Position numbers and translations under genes: made by a program. The notes beneath the pieces are model-generated. The model was not told the DNA's origin and searched no databases. It saw only the letters and a program-made list of their open reading frames with translations. Of a DNA stretch of 37,141 nucleotides, positions 20,747-25,821 are shown piece by piece. Position 1 is the stretch's first letter; every line of letters begins with the position of its first letter. Location: positions 1 to 37,141 of the forward strand of contig NZ_NFJP01000032.1 in the NCBI RefSeq assembly GCF_002159915.1, written 5' to 3'. This DNA is from Gordonibacter sp. An230 (GTDB lineage Bacteria; Actinomycetota; Coriobacteriia; Coriobacteriales; Eggerthellaceae).

Positions 20747-20975
20747 AGGAGCGAGAAATGAGAAAAGAAGAAGAGGGAAAGGAAAGGGAAGGAGGAACGG
20801 AGGAGATGGAGGATTCGAAAAAGAGGAGAGGAGCGGGAGAAGGGGAGAAGCGGAAAGGGAAGAAGCAGGAAGGGGGGAATCGGGAAGAAAAGAAGCAAGA
20901 AGAAAAGAAGCAAGAAGGGAAGAGGCGGGAAGGGGGGAATCGGGAAGAGGGGGAGGAGGCGCAGCGGAAGCGCGA
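20746..20975 (+). repeat. Nearly pure polypurine stretch with internal direct repeats
   Basis: About 230 bp composed almost only of A and G, covering the start and first 70 codons of the methyltransferase gene. It contains a direct repeat GAAGGGGGGAATCGGGAAGA near 20869 and 20929 (60 bp apart) and further AAGAAGCAAGAAG copies. It encodes a Lys/Glu/Gly/Arg-rich tail. Homopurine-homopyrimidine tracts of this length can form triplex (H-)DNA. Confidence 0.85.
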
Positions 20976-21828
20976 GCAGTCCCGTCGGGCGTTCGACCTT
21001 CAAGCTGCCACCTACGACGAGGATATGAAGGGCGCCCATGCGCGCTCGCTCTACCCGCACGTGCTGGCGTCGTTGCGGGAGCGCGCTGCCGCCTTGGCCG
21101 CGGGCGCGGATGGCGGCGCTTCCCCGTCGTGCTGTCGGACGACGCGCATCCCGCATGGTTCGCGTCCTGCGCGCATCCCGCACGTTTCGCGTCCCGCGCG
21201 CAGCCCTCATATCCCGCACGTTTCGCGCCCTTTGCGCTCTCCGCGCGATTCGCGCGCTCCGTTCGATTCGCGCGTCCGTCGCGCGTCCTCGATATGTTCC
21301 GCCGAGGTCCCCGAGCGCGCTCCCGCCCTTGCCGTTCGCCTCGCGCGCCCGTTGCGCATCCTCGATATGGGCTGCGGCACCGGCGCGCTGGCGCAGCAGG
21401 TGCTGGAGGCGTTTCCCTCTTGCGAGCTTGCCGGCATCGACCTCTCCGAGCGGATGCTCTCCCGTGCCGCCGCGCGCCTTGGCTCCCGCGCGCGGCTGAT
21501 GCGCGCGGACAGCGAGCGGCTTCCGTTTCCGGACGGGCTGTTCGACCTCGTGTACTGCAACGATTCGTTCCATCATTACCCCGATCCGCATCGCGCCGCA
21601 TTTCAGGCGTGGCGCGTGCTGGCGGCGGGCGGCGCTTTCGTCATCGGCGATTGCTGGCAGCCTGCGCCCGCCCGCGCGCTCATGAACGCGTTCATGAAGC
21701 GCAGCCCCGAGGGCGATGTGCGCATCTATGGCGAATCGGAGCTGTGCGCCATCCTCTCCCCGTGGTTTGCCCGGGTGGAGTGGCGCCGCGTGGGTTTCCG
21801 CTCCTGCCTTGCGGTTGCGGTCAAGTAG
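20758..21828 (+). CDS. SAM-dependent methyltransferase (class I, Methyltransf_11) with low-complexity insertions
   Basis: 356 residues. Residues 1-70 are an unusual Lys/Glu/Gly/Arg-rich tail encoded by a polypurine tract. Residues 72-105 (FDLQAATYDEDM) begin the normal methyltransferase. Residues about 130-177 are an in-frame tripeptide repeat of [R/H]-x-[P/S] type. The catalytic core follows: motif I RILDMGCGTGAL, then ELAGIDLSERML, LVYCNDSFHHYPDP and VLAAGGAFVIGDCWQ. The substrate is unknown. AAAGGAG precedes ATG 20758 and directly follows operator B of the upstream TetR, so expression is probably induced when that repressor releases. Without the insertions the protein would be a usual 230-240 residues. 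Confidence 0.85.
   Translation: MRKEEEGKEREGGTEEMEDSKKRRGAGEGEKRKGKKQEGGNREEKKQEEKKQEGKRREGGNREEGEEAQRKREQSRRAFDLQAATYDEDMKGAHARSLYPHVLASLRERAAALAAGADGGASPSCCRTTRIPHGSRPARIPHVSRPARSPHIPHVSRPLRSPRDSRAPFDSRVRRASSICSAEVPERAPALAVRLARPLRILDMGCGTGALAQQVLEAFPSCELAGIDLSERMLSRAAARLGSRARLMRADSERLPFPDGLFDLVYCNDSFHHYPDPHRAAFQAWRVLAAGGAFVIGDCWQPAPARALMNAFMKRSPEGDVRIYGESELCAILSPWFARVEWRRVGFRSCLAVAVK
21145..21288 (+). repeat. In-frame 9-bp tandem repeat inside the methyltransferase gene
   Basis: Sixteen consecutive 9-mers in the reading frame follow the pattern CGC-nnn-CCG/TCG (CGCATCCCG, CACGTTTCG, CGTCCCGCG and so on), encoding R-I-P, H-V-S, R-P-A and similar triplets. They sit just before SAM motif I, in what should be a short loop. 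Confidence 0.75.
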
Positions 21829-22201: not shown

Positions 22202-24052
22202 CTACAAGGGCTTCTGCTGGTACAGCCCCTTGTCCTGGAATCCCAGACTGCGGTAGTACCCCCGGGTTCCCACGGCACTGATCACGTTGAGGGCTTCGTA
22301 ACCGGCCTTGCGGGCGATGTCGGCTGCGGCCTCGACGAGCCGCTTGCCCAAGCCGAGGTGCTGGGCGCCGGCGCCCGTGCGGTGCAGCTTGGCCACGGCG
22401 CCGTACACGTGCACCTCGCGTATCATGGCCTCGCCAGGGCCGATGGGGAAGTTGGCGAACCGTTTCCGCAGGTCGTCCACGGAAGCGGAAAAGGGCAGCG
22501 ACAGGCGCAGGAACGCGGCGATGCGCCCGTCCGGCGAGGTCCATTGCAAGAAGCGCTCGCTTGCCACCGCGGTCTCGTACGCCACGACGGAAAGCGCCAG
22601 CGCGCCCACGTCGGCCCCGTCCGTGCCGATCTCGCGTGTGCGGATCTCCTCGAAGCGCACGCCGGCCTCCCGCGCCCGTTGCTCCACCAGCTGGCGCAGG
22701 TTCACCTTCTTGTTGCCCGCCACGATGTCGTGCGACGAGATGTCGCGGATCATGCGCGAGATGCGCGTGTAGGGCGGCGTGGCGGCGGCATCCGCCACCA
22801 GCACGTCGAGCAGCTCCTCCTCGGTGTAGGGCCGCCAGCTGCCGTCGCGGTAGCGCGCCATCAGGCCGGTCCCGTCCACGAGCGCGCACGGGTACAGCTT
22901 CACCTCGTCGGGCAAAAACGCCGGGTCGGTAACGAGGCGGCGGTAGTCGCGCTTGTCGGCTGCGGTCGTGGCGCCGAGGAGGTTCGCCATGAAGTGGGCG
23001 TGGATCTTGAAGCCAAACAGGCGCAGCAGCGAAAACGCCTCCGCGATGCGCTCCGAAGAGAGGCAACGCTCGTTCAACGAGAGGATGCGCCCATCGAGGC
23101 TTTGCACGCCGATCTGCACTTTCGTGCAGCCGAGACGCCGCAGCCCCGCCAGCGCCTCGGGCGTGACGGCATCGGGCCGCGTTTCCACCACGAGCCCCAC
23201 CACGCGGTGCGCCGCATGCTCGTTGGCGGCGTGCTGGCGTTCAAGCTCGGCGAGGCCGGTCGTCTGCTCGGCGGCAAGGCGCTCCCACGGGCTGCCGGAG
23301 CCGTACAGGCGCGCCATCGCGTCGTTGTAGCGCAGCGCGCCGGCGTTCACCTGCCGCTGGGCGTCGGCGGCGAACGCCGCGGCCTCCTCGCGGGTTTCGG
23401 GGACGCCGGCCTCCCGATAGCGTGCGCGGCGGGCTTCCATGCGGGTCCGCCGCTGCTCCTCGTCGCCTTCGCCCGCCTCGTTCAGCGCGCGGAACAGCTC
23501 GCTCGCAAACCAGATGCGGTAGCCCTCGGGGTAGTCGCTCCACGTGCCGCCCAAGACGATCAGTTCCACCTTGTCGGTGACGTGGCCCATCTGCTCGAGC
23601 GTGCTCAGGCGCGCCGCCACCTGCAGATACGGGTCGAAGAACGCGCGCTCGGCGCGCTGGCACGCGGGCTCGTCGGCCAGGTAGCTTTTCGGCATGCGCA
23701 GGTCGTTGGGGCAGTACAGGCAGTTGCTGGCGCACGGCCACGGCTTCGTGAGCACGGTGATGGTGGCCACGCCCGACGCCGTGCGCCGCGGCTTCACGCG
23801 CAGAAGCTGCACGAGGCGCGCCTCCAGCGCCTCGTCGATGCCCCAGCTGCGCCAGCGGGCGGGGTCGTCGCGCTTCACCTGCCGGTAGTAGGGGAAGAGC
23901 TGCTTTTTGGCGAAGTGGTCGGCGTTGTCCGCGCGTCCCTCGTTGCGCTTGCGGATGATGCGCGCCACCGCCTTGCCGTCCACGGCGGGCGCGCCCGGCG
24001 CGTCCCGCTCACGACGCAGCTCTTCCAGTATGTCCAGCAGGATCTCTTCCAT
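22202..24052 (-). CDS. elp3: Elp3-like radical SAM / GNAT enzyme for tRNA wobble uridine (U34) modification
   Basis: 616 residues. A radical-SAM half carries TKPWPCASNCLYCPNDLRMP (C107, C111, C114 bind the 4Fe-4S cluster), followed by DKVELIVLGGTWSDYP and LVVETRPDAV. A C-terminal GNAT half carries REVHVYGAVAKLHRTGAG, QHLGLGKRLVEAA and NVISAVGTRGYYRSLGF. This is the Elp3 architecture, which uses acetyl-CoA and SAM to build the 5-carboxymethyl group on U34. MEEILLDIL at 24052 is taken as the start; a Met at 24091 is also possible, but the sequence between them is a duplication of the upstream gene's end. It is the third gene of a thrH / Trm9-like / elp3 operon. Confidence 0.9.
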   Translation of the reverse strand: MEEILLDILEELRRERDAPGAPAVDGKAVARIIRKRNEGRADNADHFAKKQLFPYYRQVKRDDPARWRSWGIDEALEARLVQLLRVKPRRTASGVATITVLTKPWPCASNCLYCPNDLRMPKSYLADEPACQRAERAFFDPYLQVAARLSTLEQMGHVTDKVELIVLGGTWSDYPEGYRIWFASELFRALNEAGEGDEEQRRTRMEARRARYREAGVPETREEAAAFAADAQRQVNAGALRYNDAMARLYGSGSPWERLAAEQTTGLAELERQHAANEHAAHRVVGLVVETRPDAVTPEALAGLRRLGCTKVQIGVQSLDGRILSLNERCLSSERIAEAFSLLRLFGFKIHAHFMANLLGATTAADKRDYRRLVTDPAFLPDEVKLYPCALVDGTGLMARYRDGSWRPYTEEELLDVLVADAAATPPYTRISRMIRDISSHDIVAGNKKVNLRQLVEQRAREAGVRFEEIRTREIGTDGADVGALALSVVAYETAVASERFLQWTSPDGRIAAFLRLSLPFSASVDDLRKRFANFPIGPGEAMIREVHVYGAVAKLHRTGAGAQHLGLGKRLVEAAADIARKAGYEALNVISAVGTRGYYRSLGFQDKGLYQQKPL

Positions 24053-24056
24053 CGCC

Positions 24057-24117
24057 TCGCCTATTCCACCCGCAGCACCGGGTTCTTTCATCGTTCGCCT
24101 ATTCCACCCGCAGCACC
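24057..24117. repeat. 23-bp tandem duplication at a gene junction
   Basis: TCGCCTATTCCACCCGCAGC plus ACC occurs at 24057-24079 and again at 24095-24117. The right copy is the 3' end and stop of the methyltransferase gene; the left copy lies in front of the elp3 start. It creates an alternative Met start (24091) for elp3. Confidence 0.9.
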
Positions 24118-25184
24118 AGGTAGCTGTTAAGGGCGCCGTCGCGACCGTCGGCGCGGAAGCGGGCGGCCTCTTTGGCGGTGCCGGCCACGGAGGCCGCCAG
24201 CGCGTCGATCTCCTCGTCGGAGAAGCTGTGGCAGTAGCGGTAAGCCCCCGGCTCGTCCTTCCAGCCCAGCAGTCGATCGCCGGCGTCGAGCGGCGGTAGG
24301 CCCAGATCGCGCAGGCCGTGCTCGTGCGTGGCCTCTGCTTTGCGTGCCAACAGGGGGTTCTCCAAGAAGCGCCAGAGCGACACGATGACGAATCCGCCCG
24401 GCCGCACCTTCGCCGCCAGCGCCGCCAGCACCTCTTGCCGCCAGCGCGGAAGCGGGATGTGGTGCAGGAATCCGAACGAGACGGCCAGATCGCAGCGGGG
24501 CACCCGCAGCGCTGCGGCCAGCGCCGCTTCGCCGCCGCGCTCCTCGGCGTCCAGCGCCGCCAGCACGTCGAGGCTTTGGTGGCGCCAGCGGAGAGAGCCG
24601 GCGGTCCGGTTGCCGAAGGCGGCCTCCTCGGCGGGGTTCGGCCTCCACGGCGCGCCGGCCACCAGCGCGTCGCAGTCGTCTGCCGTGTGAAGCGTCAGGT
24701 CGGTGTCGGCCAGCTCCTCTGCCAGAAACGCTTCGAAGCGCAGGTTCCCGCATGCGAGGTCGAGCACGGAAAGTGCGGGCCGCGCATGCTCCGGACGCAG
24801 GGTTTTCGCGTCGGTGCCCCCTTGTCGCGCCCGCGCGTCTTCCCGCGCTCCCGCGCCCCCTTGCCGCCCCTGCAGGCCGCTCCGCTCGTTTGCGTCCCCG
24901 CGCGCGGCCTGCGCCCTCGCGTCTTCGTTTTCGAGCGCGGCTTTCGCCCCCGCGTCTTCGCCCCCGCGCGCGACTCCTGCCTTCGCCCTTCCGCCCGCGC
25001 GTGCGCCCTCCGCGTCGGCGTCGGCGCCCGCCCTCCCGTCCGCCGGCTGCGCCTTCCGCGCCCACTCCAAGCAGCGCCGCCATCCTTCCCACGGCGCGGT
25101 GCGCGTGGCGGAAAACGACGCGCTGCATCGCTGGTAGAAGCGCTTGTTCACGGCGCAGAGCGCGCGGGCGGTGGCGTTATCCAC
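24099..25184 (-). CDS. Trm9/ALKBH8-like tRNA (cm5U34) methyltransferase with an Ala/Gly/Arg-rich insert
   Basis: 361 residues. The N-terminus VNKRFYQRCSASFSATRTAPW matches the Trm9 signature (FY...FS.TR..PW, residues 12-32). SAM motif I is VLDLACGNLRF (about 140-150), followed by DLAVSFGFLHHIPLPRWRQE and VRPGGFVIVSLWRF as in Trm9. The C-terminus AYRYCHSFSDEEIDAL mirrors the Trm9 RFYH segment. Trm9 esterifies the cm5U made by Elongator to mcm5U. Residues 45-132 are an Ala/Gly/Arg/Asp-rich insert where Trm9 has a short linker. GTG 25184 is the start (family N-terminus begins there; ribosome site weak). It lies between thrH (31 bp) and elp3, so an Elp3-coupled role is likely. The Trm9 assignment is inference from motifs. 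Confidence 0.75.
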   Translation of the reverse strand: MDNATARALCAVNKRFYQRCSASFSATRTAPWEGWRRCLEWARKAQPADGRAGADADAEGARAGGRAKAGVARGGEDAGAKAALENEDARAQAARGDANERSGLQGRQGGAGAREDARARQGGTDAKTLRPEHARPALSVLDLACGNLRFEAFLAEELADTDLTLHTADDCDALVAGAPWRPNPAEEAAFGNRTAGSLRWRHQSLDVLAALDAEERGGEAALAAALRVPRCDLAVSFGFLHHIPLPRWRQEVLAALAAKVRPGGFVIVSLWRFLENPLLARKAEATHEHGLRDLGLPPLDAGDRLLGWKDEPGAYRYCHSFSDEEIDALAASVAGTAKEAARFRADGRDGALNSYLVLRVE

Positions 25185-25215: not shown

Positions 25216-25821
25216 CTACGCTTCCAAGGCCGCTTCGATGGCGGCCAGCAGGTCGTCGTAGCGGTCGAACGCGGGCAGGTCGGGATTCTCGGCCTTGATG
25301 GCCTCGGTGCTGCGGAAGAGGAAGCCGGCCTTGCTGGCGCGGATCATGGCGAGGTCGTTGTGGCTGTCGCCGGCGGCGATGGTCTGGCAGCCGGCCGACT
25401 GCAGCGCGCGCACGGTGTCCAGCTTGGAGTTCGGCGTGCGCATGCGCCAGCCCGTCACGGTGCCGTCGGCGCTTGCGTCCAGCTCGTTGCAGAAGAGCGT
25501 CGGCCAGCCCAGCTTTTCCATGAGGGGGCGTGCGAACTGGGTGAACGTGTCGCTGATGATGACGACCTGCGTCCGGGCGCGCAAGCTGTCCAAAAACCCG
25601 CGCGCACCCGGCAGCGGCTCGATGCCTGCGATGACCCGCTGGATCTCCGCCAGCCCCAGGCCGTGCTCGCGCAGGATGTCCAGCCGATAGGCCATGAGCT
25701 TGTCGTAGTCGGGTTCGTCGCGCGTGGTGCGGGCGAGCGCCGGGATGCCGCTCTCCTCGGCGAATGCGATCCATATCTCGGGCACCAGCACCCCTTCGAG
25801 GTCGAGGCAGACGATGTTCAT
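25216..25821 (-). CDS. thrH: Phosphoserine phosphatase / homoserine phosphotransferase ThrH
   Basis: 201 residues, the usual ThrH length. HAD-family motifs: motif I DLEGVLVPE (7-15, the ThrH variant), motif II VVIISDTFTQFARPLMEKLG, and motif IV AAGDSHNDLAMIRASKAGFL. ThrH dephosphorylates phosphoserine and can transfer the phosphate to homoserine, linking serine and threonine synthesis. AAGGAG lies 5 bp before ATG 25821. First gene of the operon with the Trm9-like and elp3 genes; its metabolic link to tRNA modification is not evident. Confidence 0.9.
   Translation of the reverse strand: MNIVCLDLEGVLVPEIWIAFAEESGIPALARTTRDEPDYDKLMAYRLDILREHGLGLAEIQRVIAGIEPLPGARGFLDSLRARTQVVIISDTFTQFARPLMEKLGWPTLFCNELDASADGTVTGWRMRTPNSKLDTVRALQSAGCQTIAAGDSHNDLAMIRASKAGFLFRSTEAIKAENPDLPAFDRYDDLLAAIEAALEA

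Follow-up and report, generated by a model that had tools for sequence, protein, structure and literature searches.

The elp3 locus of Gordonibacter sp. An230

Two adjacent genes on contig NZ_NFJP01000032.1 of Gordonibacter sp. An230 (assembly GCF_002159915.1; family Eggerthellaceae, order Coriobacteriales, phylum Actinomycetota) are the subject of this report. The window, that is, the entire stretch of DNA analyzed (37,141 nt), is one whole contig of a 3.88 Mb genome with a completeness of 96.7%. Both genes are on the minus strand, as are the motifs and other features within them. The first encodes a Trm9-like class I S-adenosylmethionine (SAM) methyltransferase of 361 aa (24099-25184; GTG start, stop TAG at 24101-24099), recognized as an open reading frame (ORF) and by its match to Trm9 in the PDB. 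The second, elp3 (22202-24091; 629 aa), encodes a radical SAM/GCN5-related N-acetyltransferase (GNAT) enzyme that is predicted to carboxymethylate the wobble uridine (U34) of tRNA; it was recognized by the family model TIGR01211 and by Elp3 chains in the PDB. In the list of ORFs the two genes are 7 nt apart. This agrees with an earlier note on this DNA, which had placed elp3 directly after a methyltransferase gene. Judging from the sequences, we consider it likely that Elp3 and the methyltransferase, a divergent Trm9 homologue, constitute a bacterial wobble-uridine pathway to 5-methoxycarbonylmethyluridine (mcm5U) and its 2-thio derivative (mcm5s2U), which replaces MnmE/MnmG.

The junction of the two genes carries a pair of 27-nt direct repeats (24057-24121), whose copies at 24057-24083 and 24095-24121 are spaced 38 nt from start to start. 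As a result of the repeat, the last part of the methyltransferase gene and the start region of elp3 are each present twice, and elp3 gains an extra upstream ATG. The corresponding stretch of Rubneribacter badeniensis (L089), as read, has a single copy of the junction. Because the ATG at 24091 is inside the duplication and R. badeniensis has the junction only once, the start that elp3 shares with its relatives is probably the ATG at 24052, which gives a protein of 616 aa. The adjacency given in the earlier note holds. The GTG start of the methyltransferase gene is backed by aligned relatives.

Sequence evidence for the methyltransferase as a divergent homologue of Trm9

A search of PDB chains with the methyltransferase of the window returned a single chain below E 0.1, Trm9 of Yarrowia lipolytica (5cm2_Z, E 2.7e-4), and a profile made from 18 relatives again had 5cm2_Z as its top match (E 2.1e-5). 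Furthermore, six genomes from three other families of the phylum encode shorter homologues of this methyltransferase (E 2.6e-22 to 1.6e-14). With the profile of these other-family proteins, which are about 240 residues long, 5cm2_Z was the top chain (E 1.9e-20) and was matched over residues 25-222. The next chain was a generic methyltransferase (1.4e-18), and among the chains listed the best stretches of all except Trm9 stop at or before residue 173, inside the common core. A single member of this group gave 9.8e-18 for Trm9 versus 2.2e-15 for the next chain. The other-family proteins and the family of the window methyltransferase were aligned by hhalign with a probability of 99.7% (E 8.2e-26). 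The other-family proteins pass generic Pfam methyltransferase models, and no NCBIfam cut-off was passed among the 25 rows listed. Trm9, and not a family acting on something other than tRNA, was thus the top match by single sequence, by profile and by way of the other-family relatives.

The sequence motifs point in the same direction. The N-terminal signature FYQRCSASFSATRTAPWEGW (residues 16-35; 25080-25139) contains the FY...FS.TR..PW pattern that the earlier note had ascribed to the protein. We located this pattern at residues 16-32; among 29 sequences of the order, F16, Y17, F24, R28 and W32 do not vary and S25 and T27 hardly vary, and in the rest of the signature G34 and W35 are invariant as well. 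R28 corresponds to R29 of yeast Trm9. SAM-binding motif I, LDLACGNLRFEA (residues 140-151; 24732-24767), has the invariant residues D142, C145, G146, N147 and R149. It is followed by the motifs FGFLHHIP (residues 237-244; 24453-24476), in which H241 corresponds to Trm9 H115, DRLLGW...YRYCH (residues 303-319; 24228-24278), in which R316 corresponds to Trm9 R241 and C318 replaces Trm9 Y243, and ADGRDGALNSY (residues 345-355; 24120-24152), in which N353 corresponds to Trm9 N271. H241, H242, D303, R316, H319, N353 and Y355 are also invariant in the 29 sequences. Between the signature and motif I lies an Ala/Gly/Arg-rich insert (about residues 45-135; 24780-25052), predicted with a local distance difference test score (pLDDT) below 50 at residues 58-125; of 18 aligned relatives, most lack it or have a much shorter one. 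R. badeniensis also has this insert, and a few relatives have other forms of it.

The family was also aligned with yeast Trm9, whose sequence was checked at five mutant positions. The RDNW motif of yeast Trm9 is replaced by ADG..LN.Y in the methyltransferase. The five positions are those of the R29A, H115A, R241A, Y243A and N271A mutants of Trm9, which are described as strongly changed in tRNA affinity and kcat, with both lowered in the mutants of R29, H115, R241 and N271 (PMC5372719). We compared them in 98 distinct methyltransferase sequences, which, like the 79 distinct Elp3 sequences used below, are the pooled named and unnamed loci minus identical strings (the methyltransferase set was drawn from 110). 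R29 is kept in 97/98, H115 in 98/98, R241 in 97/98 and N271 in 96/98, and the remainder are gaps. All four are also kept in six of six other-family relatives. At the fifth position, Y243, the protein has Cys. In summary, these sequence comparisons give good support to the assignment of the protein as a divergent homologue of Trm9. Two features of Trm9 are missing, namely Y243 and, by the search of the strain's genome described below, the partner protein Trm112.

Elp3 keeps its catalytic residues

With 403.1 bits, the Elp3 protein exceeded the cut-off of 350 bits of NCBIfam TIGR01211, and it matched solved Elp3 structures at E 9.6e-80 in a search of PDB chains. The Pfam models Radical_SAM, Radical_SAM_C and Acetyltransf_1 exceeded their gathering scores, and two more GNAT models were found below theirs. 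The radical SAM cysteines, C120-x3-C124-x2-C127 (23711-23734), align with those of the archaeal MinElp3 and are Cys in 79/79 distinct relatives. Published mutants indicate that K150, E207, K266, K302, Y304 and Y517 of MinElp3 matter (PMC6367351, PMC13315578). All six are present in Elp3 of the window, and among the 79 relatives K150 is kept in 77, E207 in 79, K266 in 78, K302 in 79, Y304 in 79 and Y517 in 75. MinElp3 Q461 is replaced by Glu in Elp3 of the window, in 77/79 relatives and in 4/4 other-family proteins. Elp3 of the window also has about 70 extra residues relative to MinElp3, located before the ETRPD motif.

The two genes are linked and co-occur

We surveyed the neighborhood of the methyltransferase gene at 80 named loci, the best of 309 in the genome collection (two of them, L074 and L075, are contigs of one metagenome-assembled genome (MAG), and a few are titled with names of other families or classes). 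The fetched stretch contains elp3 at 76/80 of these loci; 74 pairs are divergent, one is co-directional (R. badeniensis) and one is convergent at a distance of 3.1 kb. At the loci of the other families, four of six methyltransferase genes are divergent from elp3, and the remaining two genomes have their best Elp3 match on another contig. Examples of a methyltransferase gene with no elp3 in the stretch are L090 (4929-5861; Slackia isoflavoniconvertens) and L119 (an Eggerthella MAG), and genome G338 has two methyltransferase copies, one of them beside elp3.

We also searched 60 genomes of relatives. Elp3 was present in 45, of which 44 also encode the methyltransferase, and 15 have neither. The count of 45 was taken at E 1.1e-19 or better (next match 3.3e-13), while 59 genomes have a match at E 0.001 and 39 exceed the cut-off. 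The counts for the two genes include fragments: the methyltransferase of G003 was counted from a match of only 54 residues in a frame of 65 aa, that of G016 from a partial match in a 206-aa frame, and Elp3 was counted from a 69-residue piece in G046 and from a partial match in G042. In 37 of the 44 genomes with both genes, the genes are at most 5 kb apart. These pairs are divergent in 30 genomes and convergent in one; the co-directional pairs begin with the methyltransferase gene in four genomes and with elp3 in two. Pairs at most 5 kb apart occur in eight families within the order and in two further families. The pairing persists through changes of orientation, and therefore we argue for a functional tie between the two genes. 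The conserved linkage expected from the earlier note is thus strong; its picture of a two-gene unit with elp3 after the methyltransferase gene describes the pairing, but as a layout it is a minority form (4/44 versus 30/44 divergent).

Across 296 genomes of the phylum, Elp3 was found in 23 (E 1e-20 or better, 21 of them over the cut-off), and the methyltransferase was found in the same 23. Carriers of the methyltransferase were counted at E 1.6e-14 or better; 63 genomes match at E 0.001, and the next match is at 5.3e-7. The figures for co-occurrence, including the Fisher test given below, ignore relatedness, and the survey covers one phylum.

Other components of U34 modification

MnmE and MnmG each exceeded the cut-off in 0/60 relatives, with weaker partial matches in 60 and 59 genomes, respectively, and 9 of 14 control genomes were over the cut-off for both. 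Therefore, the Elp3-methyltransferase pair looks like the route of the order to 5-methylene-type (xm5) U34. Fifteen of the 60 relatives (G005, G009, G013, G028, G032, G047, G055 and others), some with incomplete genomes, have neither Elp3 nor the methyltransferase nor an over-cut-off MnmE/MnmG. MnmG was found in 54 of the 296 phylum genomes (E 1e-40 or better; 43 over the cut-off), with no overlap with the 23 Elp3 genomes. MnmA exceeded the cut-off in 56/60 relatives, including Gordonibacter sp. An230 itself. The genome of this strain has 47 tRNA matches; those identified by ARAGORN include Lys-UUU, Glu-UUC, Gln-UUG, Arg-UCU, Leu-UAA and Gly-UCC. Since both MnmA and tRNAs with U34 are present, mcm5U and mcm5s2U are the predicted products.

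Other genes in the window

A gene for a ThrH-type phosphoserine phosphatase/homoserine phosphotransferase (25216-25821; 226 bits on TIGR02137, cut-off 223.4) is located 31 nt upstream of the methyltransferase gene in the same direction and is possibly co-transcribed with it. A second, generic class I methyltransferase is encoded on the plus strand at 20758-21828 (Methyltransf_11, 82.2 bits); its N-terminal part is rich in Glu, Lys and Arg. PADLOC gave no match for the Elp3 or the Trm9-like methyltransferase protein.

Proposed pathway

We propose the following scheme. Elp3, acting without the other Elongator subunits, would use SAM radicals and acetate derived from acetyl-CoA to place a carboxymethyl group on C5 of U34, giving 5-carboxymethyluridine (cm5U). 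The neighboring Trm9-like methyltransferase would then methylate the carboxylate of this side chain with SAM, converting cm5U to mcm5U, apparently without Trm112. MnmA would add the 2-thio group on the tRNAs for Lys, Glu and Gln, yielding mcm5s2U. In this way the Elp3-methyltransferase pair would substitute for the MnmE/MnmG pathway. We infer the substrate, the product, the order of thiolation and the independence from Trm112; the products are predicted from homology, conserved residues and genome context. Beyond this strain, Coriobacteriales and some other lineages of the phylum probably make mcm5U/mcm5s2U by such a compact system, in which Elp3 and a Trm112-independent Trm9 replace MnmE/MnmG, and the pair has been lost in some members.

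Evidence against the pathway and alternative explanations

Several observations, considered here together with the explanations that they might favor, weigh against this pathway. Trm9 Y243 is replaced by Cys in 94/98 sequences and by Ala in three (one gap); in the six other-family relatives this position is Cys in three and Tyr, Phe and Val in one each. Yeast Trm9 needs Trm112 (PMC5372719), and no Trm112 (PF03966) was found in the Gordonibacter genome, which is 96.7% complete. In controls, PF03966 matched in 8/14 genomes, E. coli included, with seven over the cut-off. It exceeded the cut-off in 6/60 relatives, as short matches in frames of 320-795 aa, and in one of six other-family genomes. 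The methyltransferase might be derived from Trm9 and act on the product of Elp3 by something other than simple esterification, modifying a further-modified side chain or another group of U34 and giving a different end product. The change of Y243 to Cys, the replacement of the RDNW motif of yeast by ADG..LN.Y, and the divergence of the family, whose members L006 and L013 have no Pfam or NCBIfam match at E 0.01, would fit this possibility. R29, H115, R241 and N271, the residues tied to the placement of cm5U34, are kept, however, and the similarity to yeast Trm9 is much greater in the other-family relatives, which also occur beside elp3. We therefore regard a different end product as unlikely. 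A Trm9-like working of the methyltransferase is the best reading of its sequence despite the change of Tyr to Cys and the missing Trm112.

Elp3 itself also departs from the known proteins. The zinc cysteines of the linker are absent from Elp3 of the window, which has F/E/T there; 78/79 relatives have no Cys at these sites and one has a single Cys, whereas they are present in 4/4 Elp3 proteins from the other families. These cysteines are called strictly conserved in bacteria and archaea, and eukaryotic Elp3 also lacks them (PMC6367351); because of the latter, we do not take their loss as a bar to membership in the Elp3 family. The non-overlap of MnmG with Elp3 gives a Fisher p of 0.011, a modest value, so that it is supporting rather than decisive. 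It could be supposed that Elp3 of the order has a role other than cm5U34 synthesis, and that the methyltransferase has followed it into that role. This would be in line with the loss of the zinc cysteines, with the insert of about 70 residues and with the scores on TIGR01211, which are about 340-430 bits in the order (where there is one nearly full-length match) versus about 594-605 in the other families. It is quite improbable, since the radical SAM cysteines, E207, K302 and Y304 are kept in 79/79 sequences and K150, K266 and Y517 in 75-78/79, and since the MnmE/MnmG search of the 60 relatives found no alternative route to xm5U34.

The remaining adverse points concern the assignment to Trm9 and the linkage. 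Trm9 leads the profile search by a small margin, with MfnG (7.9e-5) and two further methyltransferases (1.2e-4 and 3e-4) close behind, so the sequence similarity to Trm9 is weak taken alone. The methyltransferase of the window passes no Pfam or NCBIfam cut-off, and in Pfam only generic methyltransferase domains appear below the cut-off. Structure prediction gave the protein a class I methyltransferase fold with a mean pLDDT of 80.8. In Foldseek, Trm9 came second, after a methyltransferase of Methanosarcina that is uncharacterised; in VIA-align 2 the top match was METTL6 (Z 19.9) and no Trm9 was among the 50 rows listed. The fold also resembles NTMT1 and glycine N-methyltransferase. It is compatible with Trm9 but not specific for it, and because many class I methyltransferases score alike we do not count it as evidence for Trm9 beyond the second rank in Foldseek. 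Structure prediction and family search, the checks suggested by the earlier note, therefore favored Trm9 by PDB sequence match, but not by fold comparison or by a Pfam/NCBIfam name. As to linkage, 4/80 named loci have no elp3 in the stretch, one of which (L047) starts at a contig end. Seven of the 44 genomes with both genes have them unlinked, five on different contigs and two far apart on one contig, and G042, with its partial Elp3, is the sole genome among the 60 relatives that has Elp3 and no methyltransferase. One might then see in the methyltransferase an ordinary small-molecule or protein methyltransferase that is beside elp3 by chance, as the resemblance of its fold to METTL6, NTMT1 and glycine N-methyltransferase and the generic Pfam domains would allow. 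The linkage within 5 kb, found with varying orientation in eight families within the order and in two further families, co-occurrence in 23/23 of the carriers among 296 genomes, and conservation of the Trm9 residues make such a coincidence very improbable.

In E. coli, CmoM is a methyltransferase for wobble uridine of the uridine 5-oxyacetic acid (cmo5U) type. That the methyltransferase acts on such a uridine instead of cm5U would involve comparable chemistry, in that the carboxyl group of a U34 side chain is methylated, but can hardly be believed, as TIGR00452, which we take to be the CmoB model, exceeded its cut-off in 0/60 relatives (versus 1/14 controls; 37/60 have weak matches only, best E 1.3e-10) and the methyltransferase is linked to elp3.

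Comparison with known systems

The proposed Elp3-Trm9 pathway resembles that of yeast, in which Elongator (Elp3) and Trm9-Trm112 act, in the catalytic residues of Elp3, the Trm9 signature, four of the five tested Trm9 residues and the predicted two-step chemistry followed by thiolation. It differs in that no Elongator complex is assumed (the searches did not extend to the other subunits, Elp1, 2, 4, 5 and 6), the search of the strain's own genome gave no Trm112, Y243 is Cys, the genes are adjacent, and thiolation is by MnmA (predicted) and not by Ctu1-Ctu2. The archaeal orthologues in Haloferax volcanii and Sulfolobus solfataricus likewise involve Elp3 without Elongator, and elp3 and trm9 are described as clustered in S. 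solfataricus (PMC2584109, PMC5372719); mcm5U is reported in H. volcanii (PMC7663514). Archaeal Trm9 is stated to come with Trm112 (PMC7694415), whereas the bacterial family is divergent and MnmE/MnmG were not found; this comparison is one of descriptions, not of sequences. Elp3 of Dehalococcoides mccartyi, whose structure is known, is likewise a bacterial stand-alone Elp3. It is presented as a rare bacterial case whose product is without evidence in the organism, and the available text mentions no Trm9 partner (PMC7663514, PMC6367351). The MnmE/MnmG route (with MnmC) to 5-carboxymethylaminomethyluridine and 5-methylaminomethyluridine also modifies C5 of U34 and is combined with MnmA thiolation, but uses different enzymes. 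Human ALKBH8 has a Trm9-like domain that makes mcm5U, yet this domain is part of a fusion with RRM and AlkB-like domains and requires TRMT112 (PMC5372719).

That Elp3 and Trm9 work together in eukaryotes and archaea is already known. For bacteria, one source names a single clade with Elp3, Dehalococcoides, with no evidence of its product (PMC7663514), and other sources speak of some bacterial clades (PMC6367351) or of numerous bacteria (PMC13315578). According to a 2017 review, no bacterial gene significantly similar to Trm112-partner methyltransferases had been detected (PMC5372719). The 5-(carboxymethyl)- or 5-methylaminomethyl-2-thiouridines, (c)mnm5s2U, are assigned to bacteria and mcm5s2U to eukaryotes (PMC5400242), and in a 2020 catalogue, as consulted, neither cm5U nor mcm5U is listed for bacteria (PMC7694415). 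The reviews consulted assign mcm5U to eukaryotes and archaea and mcm5s2U to eukaryotes. In the accessible sections of the open-licence literature, no bacterial Elp3-Trm9 pair or bacterial mcm5U is described, and a report elsewhere is possible. What is new here is apparently a bacterial, apparently Trm112-independent version of Elp3-Trm9 that stands in for MnmEG.

If this is true, the pair would offer Elp3 and Trm9 in a minimal and perhaps partner-free form, and an example of one xm5U34 pathway substituting for another. Gut bacteria, among them Collinsella, Slackia and Senegalimassilia, would then also use a eukaryote-like wobble base in decoding.

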